Assembly: GCF_003062295.1 (NCBI RefSeq)
Contig: NZ_PYCN01000007.1
Span: 62,001-126,000 of the forward strand
Source of the DNA: Bradyrhizobium algeriense
GTDB lineage: Bacteria > Pseudomonadota > Alphaproteobacteria > Rhizobiales > Xanthobacteraceae
Direction of reading: 5' to 3'
DNA length: 64,000 nt
The notes below the pieces were generated by a model. The model was not told the origin of the DNA and searched no databases. It was given only the letters and a program-made list of their open reading frames with translations. Position numbers and translations under genes: made by a program. Every line of letters starts with the position of its first letter. Position 1 is the first letter of the stretch. Below are positions 2,649 through 5,600 of the stretch, one piece after another.

Positions 2649-2677
2649 TTGACGGCGACGCTTGTCTGCCGCATAAG
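2649..2677 (+). promoter_or_regulatory. Promoter of the asd leader transcript
   Basis: TTGACG (2649-2654), a 17-base spacer and CATAAG (2672-2677) form a good sigma70-type promoter. The predicted transcription start falls at about 2683-2686, so the leader peptide ATG at 2686 would be at or next to the RNA 5' end. This recalls the leaderless trp leader peptide known from Sinorhizobium. Confidence 0.6.
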
Positions 2678-2685
2678 TCCGCGCC

Positions 2686-2757
2686 ATGACGACTTCGACC
2701 AAAGCGACCGCGAAAACCAAAGCACCCTCCGGGGGCTCGGGAGCCGTGCGCGCGTAG
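2686..2757 (+). CDS. Thr/Lys-rich leader peptide of asd (candidate)
   Basis: A 23-codon frame begins MTTSTKATAKTKAP and ends at TAG 2755-2757. Five Thr codons (2, 3, 5, 8, 11) and three Lys codons (6, 10, 12) fall in the first 12. Both are end products of the aspartate pathway that the next gene, asd, feeds. An intrinsic terminator at 2783-2814 lies between leader and asd, the usual layout of ribosome-mediated attenuation. GGGGCT (2732-2737), inside the leader, is complementary to AGCCCC (2784-2789) in the terminator arm and could form an antiterminator when a ribosome stalls on the Thr codons. It is too short to be confirmed by coding statistics. Confidence 0.55.
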   Translation: MTTSTKATAKTKAPSGGSGAVRA

Positions 2758-2782
2758 TCGAACGATCGCATTATCTGAACCG

Positions 2783-2814
2783 AAGCCCCGCCTGAAAAGG
2801 ACCGGGGCTTTTTT
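2783..2814 (+). terminator. Intrinsic terminator between leader peptide and asd
   Basis: AAGCCCCG (2783-2790) pairs perfectly with CGGGGCTT (2803-2810) around a 12-base loop and runs into six T's (2809-2814). It lies 25 bases after the leader peptide stop and 42 bases before asd. It could simply end the upstream transcript, but with the leader peptide it is a plausible attenuator. Confidence 0.8.
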
Positions 2815-2856
2815 ATTGCCCGCAAGCCATGATGCTCAACCAAAGAGGATAGACCC

Positions 2857-3882
2857 GTGAGCCACGAACCCGTTGTAGCCATTGCCGGTGTAACCGGCGC
2901 GGTCGGCGCCGAATTCATCGCCACCATGGACAGGCGCGCCTTCCCGGTCCGCAAGCTCAAGGCGCTGGCCAGCGCCCGCTCGGCGGGCAAAACCATCGAC
3001 TTCCGCGGTGAGAGGATCGTGATCGAGGAGCTCACCGAAAAGTCGTTCGAGGGCGTCGACATCGCGCTGTTCTCGGCCGGCGGGGCCATTTCGCGCAAGT
3101 TCGCCCCCGCAGCGGTGAAGGCCGGCGCCGTCGTGGTAGACAACTCCTCGGCCTTCCGGATGGATCCGAACGTGCCGCTGGTGATCCCCGAGATCAACGC
3201 GGGCCGTATCCGCGAGCACAAGGGCATCATCGCCGTTCCGAACTGCTCTGCGATCACGGCGCTGGTACCGCTGTGGCCGATCCACAAGCAAAACCGCATC
3301 AAGCGCATGATCGTGTCGACCTATCAGGCGGCGAGCGGCGCCGGTGCGGCGGCGATGGAAGAGCTCTTGGAATCGACGCGCGCTTATCTCGACGGCCGGC
3401 CGTTCACGCCCAAGGTCATCCCGCTTCCCTACGCGTTCAACGTCTTCAGCCACAACACGGCAATCGATCCCGAGACCGGCTACAACGACGAAGAGACCAA
3501 GGTGATCAAGGAGACGCGCAAGATCTTCGAGGATGAGAAGATCGCGATCGGCGTCACCTGCGTCCGCGTCCCGGTGCTGCGCGCCCATTGCGAGGCGATC
3601 ACCTTCGAATGCGAAAAGCCGATCACCGAGCATGACGTGCGCGCGATCCTGGCCAACGCACCGGGCGTCAAGATCGTCGACGACCGCGCCAGGAACTACT
3701 TCCCGATGCCGATCGATGCGTCAGGCCAGGACGACGTCCTGGTCGGCCGTATCCGTCGGGATCTCAGCGATGCTAGCGGCCACTCGATCTCGATGTTCGT
3801 GTCGGCCGACCAGCTCCTGAAGGGCGCGGCGCTCAACGCGATCCAGATCGCGGAATTGCTGCCGCAACCCGCGATGGCGTAA
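2857..3882 (+). CDS. asd: Aspartate-semialdehyde dehydrogenase
   Basis: Asd reduces L-aspartyl-4-phosphate to aspartate semialdehyde with NADPH, the branch point to Lys/diaminopimelate, Thr and Met. The 341-residue product has the nucleotide-binding GVTGAVG loop at residues 11-17 and the catalytic Cys130 in VPNCSAI. EINAGRI and the QAASGAG segment are also typical of the USG-1/Asd family. The GTG/ATG-like start at 2857 gives MSHEPVVAIAGV, the usual N-terminus. Expression is probably controlled by the Thr/Lys-rich leader and terminator directly upstream. A palindromic repeat follows 13 bases after the stop. Confidence 0.97.
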   Translation: MSHEPVVAIAGVTGAVGAEFIATMDRRAFPVRKLKALASARSAGKTIDFRGERIVIEELTEKSFEGVDIALFSAGGAISRKFAPAAVKAGAVVVDNSSAFRMDPNVPLVIPEINAGRIREHKGIIAVPNCSAITALVPLWPIHKQNRIKRMIVSTYQAASGAGAAAMEELLESTRAYLDGRPFTPKVIPLPYAFNVFSHNTAIDPETGYNDEETKVIKETRKIFEDEKIAIGVTCVRVPVLRAHCEAITFECEKPITEHDVRAILANAPGVKIVDDRARNYFPMPIDASGQDDVLVGRIRRDLSDASGHSISMFVSADQLLKGAALNAIQIAELLPQPAMA

Positions 3883-3895
3883 GGCGGCGGGATCG

Positions 3896-3975
3896 GTAGG
3901 GTGGGCAAAGCGAAGCGTGCCCACCATCAAGCACTCGGCTCGTGGTGGTGGGCACGCTTCGCTTTGCCCACCTAC
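3896..3975. repeat. Palindromic repeat, GGGTGGGCAAAGCG family
   Basis: Two arms of about 30 bases (GTAGGGTGGGCAAAGCGAAG and its complement ending TTTGCCCACCTAC) flank a short centre. A relative lies at 34371-34463. It sits between the convergent ends of asd and the sorbosone-dehydrogenase-like gene, and could also act as a bidirectional transcript end. Confidence 0.85.
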
Positions 3976-5282: not shown

Positions 5283-5512
5283 GAAGTTCTCCAGATGATG
5301 CGCGCACCCTATCCGACGACAGGAACCGTTGGAACCTCGCCGTCGAGGCACGAAGACGCCGACGCATGCCGCGCACCCGCATGGTTGCAACGGCGCAACA
5401 GCGCACGCGATATGCTTGGAAGCCGGTAGTTATACGATCTTGGCGGCAGCAACCGAATCGAAGAGACAGATAGTGGCGCTTTATTGTCAGAGCGCCTCCT
5501 CCCTGAACCTTT
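5283..5512. other. Gene-free stretch before an orphan terminator
   Basis: No convincing coding frame is present. On the plus strand the stretch GCGCCTCCTCCCTG (about 5491-5504) carries anti-Shine-Dalgarno-like CCTCC motifs just ahead of a strong terminator, a layout typical of trans-acting small RNAs. A clear promoter could not be identified; the best pieces are TTGGCG (5440) and TATACG (5431), neither well spaced. Confidence 0.3.
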
Positions 5513-5538
5513 AGCCCGCCGCATCGGCGGGCTTTTTT
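5513..5538 (+). terminator. Strong plus-strand terminator without an upstream gene
   Basis: AGCCCGCCG (5513-5521) pairs with CGGCGGGCT (5525-5533) around a CAT loop and is followed by a T-run. It works only on the plus strand, yet both flanking genes are on the minus strand. It therefore either ends an unannotated plus-strand RNA or blocks antisense transcription. Confidence 0.75.
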
Positions 5539-5600
5539 TCCAGCGTGGCTGCGGGCCGTCCGTGTTGGCGGCACTGCAGCAGGACGCCCGGCATTTTGCC

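Follow-up and report, generated by a model that had tools for sequence, protein, structure and literature searches.

A Probable Threonine- and Lysine-Codon Attenuator Upstream of a Second asd Gene in Bradyrhizobium

Introduction

The asd gene leads to a branch-point metabolite for lysine, threonine, and methionine, and its product feeds both lysine and threonine synthesis. An RNA motif named 'asd' in Rfam is located upstream of asd in streptococci and lactobacilli, and the enterobacterial leader thrL carries isoleucine codons as well as threonine codons. In thrL, which controls thrABC, threonine (ACC) codons are read by the ribosome in a choice between terminator and antiterminator (PMC4132733). 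In the alphaproteobacterium S. meliloti, the trpLE(G) attenuator (rnTrpL/peTrpL) has a tryptophan-codon leader ORF at the 5′ end of the RNA, transcription is reported to start at its ATG, and attenuation of transcription is ribosome-dependent (sections on the trp leader in PMC7298713 and PMC10117765).

SEP5, another small ORF of S. meliloti, is located in a 5′ UTR and has six threonine and three lysine codons; the section that treats it gives Ribo-seq and Western evidence, suggests briefly that it may be a leader peptide, calls the downstream gene 'aspartate dehydrogenase', and calls the small ORF conserved only in Sinorhizobium (PMC10117765). A preliminary description of the locus analyzed here knew of no account of attenuation for asd, a statement that SEP5 qualifies; no other description of an asd attenuator in the Alphaproteobacteria was found in the open PMC literature (mostly titles and the beginnings of abstracts), and the word asd is absent from the main texts of PMC4842269, PMC5082802, and PMC2965389.

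The window analyzed here is a 64,000-nt stretch of the Bradyrhizobium algeriense genome, and all features are given on its forward (+) strand. The preliminary description had proposed a threonine/lysine attenuator upstream of an asd gene in this window; comparison of relatives and modeling of RNA folding support that proposal, which is very probably right as to mechanism.

Results

The leader opens with a promoter whose −35 hexamer, TTGACG (2649–2654), and −10 hexamer, CATAAG (2672–2677), are separated by a 17-nt spacer. Eight nucleotides separate the −10 hexamer from an ATG at 2686, the start of a 23-codon leader ORF (2686–2757; MTTSTKATAKTKAPSGGSGAVRA, stop TAG). Five threonine codons (2, 3, 5, 8, and 11) and three lysine codons (6, 10, and 12) lie within codons 2–12 and form a putative regulatory block (2689–2721), in which the last threonine codon is 2716–2718. 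A perfect stem follows, with AAGCCCCG (2783–2790) pairing to CGGGGCTT (2803–2810) across a loop of 12 and with six T at 2809–2814; the 3′ arm and T-run (2803–2814) make up region 4 of the scheme described below. The promoter, the peptide with its eight threonine and lysine codons among the first 12, and the terminator stem with its T-run had all been named in the preliminary description, and each is present in the sequence at the positions stated. The segment 2684–2820 folds with a z of −2.78 against shuffled sequences, of which 1 in 200 was equally good. A simple consensus scanner called neither the promoter nor the terminator of the leader, because it accepts only −10 boxes that end in T and loops no longer than 8.

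Downstream of the terminator is an asd gene with a GTG start (2857–3882), whose product matches the NCBIfam models PRK14874 (430.7 bits, cut-off 223) and asd_B (404.1 bits, cut-off 324.2). The assignment made earlier is correct but incomplete, since a protein search found two asd genes in the genome. The ordinary copy (G000:C132:83837–84868) is 46% identical to the window copy and has no threonine/lysine leader; the leader would therefore control a second isozyme, here called asd2. Genes of the window type were found in 111 of 117 sampled Bradyrhizobium genomes, its own genome counted (E ≤ 1e-100). Outside the genus, a single copy exceeded 51% identity in a sample of 149 genomes of the family (G189, 80%; E ≤ 1e-80), and a copy 62% identical to the window asd was found in the sample of 199 genomes of the order (G344). 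The ordinary type occurs in 188 of these 199 genomes (E ≤ 1e-120).

The asd2 leader resembles the S. meliloti trp attenuator in its alphaproteobacterial host; its ORF would likewise stand at the 5′ end of the RNA, to go by promoter spacing, and it would share ribosome-dependent attenuation of transcription; it differs in having threonine and lysine codons before asd in place of tryptophan codons before trpE(G). The likeness to thrL would lie in ribosome-read threonine codons and a choice between terminator and antiterminator. Whereas thrL acts on thrABC, hom and thrC of the window genome have no such leader in the 350 nt that precede the first start considered for each, and the idea that these two genes share the leader was rejected on that ground. 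SEP5, if it is the ORF of strain Ak57 described below (...KTTAKTTTKTV at its end), shares a putative threonine/lysine-codon leader ORF before asd, but it precedes the ordinary type of asd, its codons are at the 3′ end of a 56-aa ORF, and no terminator with a T-run was seen there.

The window leader matches no Rfam family, and in the seven loci that were scanned none attained its gathering score; a known Rfam element as the identity of the leader was rejected for this reason. Elsewhere in the window, an inverted repeat 3′ of asd (3900–3972) has 30-nt arms that are 97% complementary and 13 nt apart; the arms gave sub-threshold matches to miRNA families in Rfam, and the repeat is probably a dispersed palindromic one. 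A sub-threshold match to the suhB/mmgR RNA (RF00519) was also found at 5471–5548 on the + strand (30.1 bits, against a gathering score of 41).

Conservation was assessed in 81 loci, namely the window and the 80 best-ranked of 453 relatives. The label Bradyrhizobium applies to 75 of these relatives and not to the other five (L043, L049, L054, L066, and L098). A strict pattern (TTGAC., 16–18 nt,.ATAA., 5–12 nt, ATG, an ORF of less than 60 aa, GCCCC..GGGGC, and T) matched the whole arrangement of promoter, short ORF, and terminator before asd in 80 of the 81 loci. The exception, L070, differs by eye only in its −10 box, CATATA. All matching loci have a 17-nt spacer, and the gap between −10 box and ATG is 7–11 nt, mostly 8, which as spacing alone is compatible with a leaderless start; in three loci with a gap of 11 (L035, L084, and L101) a further ATG is found one codon upstream of the one chosen by the pattern. 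Mean column identity over the 81 loci is.998 for the −35 hexamer,.996 for the −10 hexamer,.994 for the 5′ arm of the stem, and 1.0 for the 3′ arm and T-run, and it is.59 in the upstream flank and.505 between terminator and asd. A list of 79 distinct leaders left 13 minus-strand loci of the genus unmatched. When leaders were scored by the number of threonine and lysine residues in 12 codons, all 30 genus loci L002–L031 had an ORF scoring 7–10.

Codon conservation was followed in an alignment of 55 leaders chosen by the author, 54 of them distinct (L029 equals L055, which is one base short). Five positions of the block are near-invariant, with Thr5 and Lys6 kept in all 55 leaders, Thr8 and Thr11 in 54, and Lys10 in 52. 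The other positions among codons 2–13 vary between threonine, phenylalanine, isoleucine, asparagine, methionine, alanine, serine, arginine, leucine, lysine, glutamine, and valine; codon 13, alanine in the window, is threonine in 21 of the 55. Mean third-position entropy is.805 for codons 2–13 against.234 for codons 14–24, and because third positions are freer in the block, the threonine/lysine block appears to be conserved for its codons and the tail for its RNA. A mainly protein-coding role of the ORF was rejected on this pattern. The GGG of codon 16 (2731–2733) is invariant in the 55 leaders. As the preliminary description would lead one to expect, threonine and lysine codons and pairing are conserved while other bases drift.

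Lysine at codons 6, 10, 12, and 13 across the 55 leaders is encoded by AAA 133 times and by AAG 9 times, and the three lysine codons of the window leader (within 2701–2721) are all AAA. Five long ORFs of the window favor AAG (43, with 17 AAA).

Folding of the free window RNA pairs 2721–2723 and 2725–2727 with 2732–2737, so that a strand at 2721–2727 (region 1) would act as a protector of the antiterminator strand. This hairpin is predicted in 52 of the 55 leaders, and in all 52 the region-1 strand ends no more than 14 nt from codon 11; by this geometry, a stall at codon 11 would place the ribosome over region 1 and leave region 2 available for pairing. Region 2 is the antiterminator strand GGGGCTCGG (2732–2740), which lies within the coding tail, and region 3 is CCGAAGCCCCG (2780–2790), which serves the predicted antiterminator with 2780–2789 and the terminator, as its 5′ arm, with 2783–2790.

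The earlier scheme, in which a stall on the last threonine codon frees GGGGCT (2732–2737) to pair with AGCCCC (2784–2789), agrees with these folds and is extended by them. The two hexamers are exact complements. In a model with the ribosome on codon 11 and the RNA made only as far as the 5′ arm of the terminator, pairing of regions 2 and 3 was predicted in all 55 stalled transcripts (mean z −1.92; 23 of 55 at p ≤ 0.05 against shuffles). The stalled window fold contains 2732–2737/2784–2789, continues with 2738–2740/2780–2782, and encloses an inner helix of GTGCG (2746–2750) with CGCAT (2767–2771), both in invariant or nearly invariant columns. The antiterminator is thus longer than had been proposed (2732–2740/2780–2789 plus the inner helix), and the protector hairpin (2721–2727/2732–2737), whose first strand a codon-11 stall could cover, is a further addition to the scheme.

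The terminator is predicted in 52 of 55 full free-RNA folds. When the whole terminator was included at equilibrium with a 12-nt ribosome edge, it prevailed in 8 of 12 leaders listed, including that of the window, and the model therefore depends on co-transcriptional order, as trp does. For four leaders modeled as stalled at a threonine codon 13 (L056, L060, L096, and L100), the GGGG of region 2 was covered, and L056 also failed the duplex test described below (p.412); if stalls at codon 13 matter in such species, their antiterminators would have to be built from different pairs. RNAalifold on the 55 leaders gave 19 pairs with one covarying pair and a covariation term of −0.67. The changed pair is in the small hairpin and varies on both sides (CG in 34 rows, GC in 21). 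Covariation within the genus is close to nil because antiterminator and terminator share the invariant GGGG/CCCC.

Comparable leaders were sought outside the genus. A class-wide search of 385 genomes (E ≤ 1e-95) found asd2-type genes in 28, two of them in the genus, and with G189 and G344 a total of 28 extra-genus loci were scanned. Four loci were left out (L116 and L117, of unclear Asd type; L115, a genus member; L189, with 198 bases), and L231, in which the match starts at residue 52 and the upstream stretch is consequently misplaced, was counted as a miss. An ORF scoring at least 7 was found in 16 of the 28 loci, compared with none of the 28 reverse strands and 5 of 5600 dinucleotide shuffles; 10 of the 28 had no ORF scoring at least 6. 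Examples of the encoded peptides are MRFATKTTTTKTTTFGGPARTCA, MFKKTTTTTKTTAGGACAELFG, and MTQATKRATTTKTKPSGAGIARA, and in Azospirillum argentinense MNRSLAITTTTTKTTRSGGPSDGGVR is encoded upstream of an asd whose product is 49.5% identical to that of the window.

Twenty leaders were taken forward: the 16 scoring at least 7, three chosen by eye (L222, L233, and L227, with scores of 6, 6, and 4), and L242 from Azospirillum, one of seven Azospirillum plasmid matches. By eye, a C-run/G-run hairpin with GCCCC or a similar arm lies beyond the stop codon in all 20; a run of at least three T follows it in 8 and not in 12. In a duplex test, the coding tail was paired with the 16 nt ending at the C-run and compared with shuffled tails. 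Nine of the 20 leaders had antiterminator pairing that outperformed shuffled tails (p ≤ 0.05), with a Fisher value of 3.7e-8 over partly non-independent rows that include one-genus groups (L214/L215, L236/L237, and L230/L232/L235); L222 and L225, in which the wrong C-run was taken as the arm, were kept with their poor p. Six of seven leaders from the genus reached p ≤ 0.05 in the same test. Pairs that differ from the window on both strands occur in L217 (CTGGG/CCCAG), L232 (CTGGT/ACCAG), and L235 (GCTGG/CCAGC), and a pair differing on one strand, CTTCGG/CCGAAG, occurs in L213 and L233; by eye, these pairs beyond GGGG/CCCC appear to supply the covariation that is missing within the genus.

In L214, L221, L224, and L230, inverted repeats of the GTCTCC..GGAGAC type were seen by eye in the last 50–100 nt before asd. 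Such repeats would include the likely ribosome-binding site of asd in several asd2-type loci.

Ordinary asd genes were scanned in one or more loci per sampled family. In the order outside the family of the window genome, 26 of 53 loci, in 22 of 42 families, have a threonine/lysine ORF scoring at least 7 (controls: 12 of 10600 dinucleotide shuffles and 0 of 53 reverse strands); such ORFs were found in 1 of 16 loci in the rest of the family, 0 of 5 in Bradyrhizobium, and 2 of 20 in other orders. In these leaders of other Hyphomicrobiales families, the threonine and lysine codons are mostly at the 3′ end of the ORF. In S. meliloti Ak57, an ORF annotated as a hypothetical protein of 56 aa (L239:1169–1339) ends in SLARKTTAKTTTKTV and precedes the annotated asd; from its codon content and place, it appears to be SEP5. 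A closely similar C-terminal threonine/lysine cluster is found before asd in a Shinella record and a Rhizobium record, and in L126, L127, L118, L120, L124, L128, L165, L180, and others the ORF ends about 70–150 nt before asd.

At ordinary asd, complementarity between the surroundings of the leader stop codon and the ribosome-binding region of the gene reached p ≤ 0.05 in only 7 of 32 loci (mononucleotide shuffles), so that attenuation of translation there stays a guess. A G+C hairpin with at least five T directly after it was seen by eye in none of the 32 stretches that follow the leader stop; runs of T5 in L120, L163, and L201 lie elsewhere in those stretches.

Discussion

In all likelihood, the second asd of Bradyrhizobium is subject to ribosome-mediated transcription attenuation of the trp/thr type, as judged from sequence comparison and folding models. 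What is observed directly is that the elements are present and conserved, that the codon block is retained, and that antiterminator complementarity is maintained with other bases outside the genus. RNA polymerase would start at or next to the ATG of the 23-codon peptide; both the use of this promoter and the exact RNA start are what we infer from its place and spacing. With charged tRNA-Thr (and probably tRNA-Lys) plentiful, the ribosome would reach the stop codon, the antiterminator helices could not form, and the stem 2783–2790/2803–2810 with its U-run would then end transcription after about 129 nt. Starvation for threonine or lysine is the presumed signal: a ribosome stalled on codons 5–12 would cover region 1 (2721–2727) or hold it open, freed region 2 (2732–2740) would pair with region 3 (2780–2789), and with the terminator blocked asd would be transcribed.

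The lysine codons need not report lysine alone. The tRNAs for threonine and lysine (AAA) codons contain t6A, a modification synthesized from threonine (a point covered in part by PMC4132733), so the lysine codons of the leader could serve as additional reporters of threonine.

It is improbable that the leader ORF regulates asd mainly through translation, processing, or access of Rho, with the hairpin and T-run mattering less. Such control would suit the extra-genus leaders that keep the C-run/G-run hairpin with fewer than three T (12 of 20, by eye), as well as the leaders of ordinary asd, whose codons cluster chiefly near the ORF end and whose 32 stretches show by eye no hairpin–T5 arrangement; within the genus, however, the 3′ arm of the stem and the six T are identical in all 81 loci, and the complementarity expected of translational control reached p ≤ 0.05 in 7 of 32 cases only, all of them ordinary asd. 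We consider it a slim chance that the locus acts chiefly as a small protein or trans-acting sRNA with cis control of asd secondary. The trp leader RNA and peptide of S. meliloti do have functions in trans, according to the passages on rnTrpL and peTrpL (PMC7298713, PMC10117765), and the asd leader would be comparable in being a leaderless mRNA, yet the third positions of its C-terminal codons are held as for an RNA (entropy.234 versus.805), and outside the genus peptide length and tail differ while threonine/lysine content and pairing remain.

The terminator lies downstream of a same-strand ORF (1913–2602) and might simply serve that gene, with the threonine/lysine ORF arising by chance. The comparative data make this very unlikely: a conserved promoter stands between the 1913–2602 ORF and the terminator, the element is conserved between drifting flanks (.59), and a score of 7 was reached in few shuffles in either the asd2-type set (5 of 5600) or the ordinary asd of the order (12 of 10600). 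The combination was rejected on conservation. Attenuation by a stalled ribosome is the account retained for asd2.

More tentatively, and with somewhat less than an even chance of being right, the leaders may derive from an old switch on asd, spread across the Alphaproteobacteria, that senses threonine and lysine jointly and exists in two builds. One would be leaderless and transcription-terminating, with the codons in the 5′ half of the ORF (asd2, Azospirillum, and others); the other would have the codons at the 3′ end of the ORF (ordinary asd, many Hyphomicrobiales) and act via translation or by another route. Once released, the leader RNA or its peptide might also have a role in trans, as rnTrpL/peTrpL has.

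The finding is wider than the preliminary description, in that it concerns a second isozyme and extends to comparable leaders elsewhere in the class, and a little less new in view of SEP5, whose brief suggestion in Sinorhizobium is here tied to a wider pattern. Little was found in the literature on how asd is adjusted in the Alphaproteobacteria, and the leader provides a concrete, testable candidate regulator on a gene present in nearly all sampled Bradyrhizobium genomes, with counterparts beyond the genus. The genome thus pairs an ordinary asd with a second one that carries a leader, and on the sequence evidence this second gene is very probably switched on when ribosomes stall for lack of threonine or lysine.
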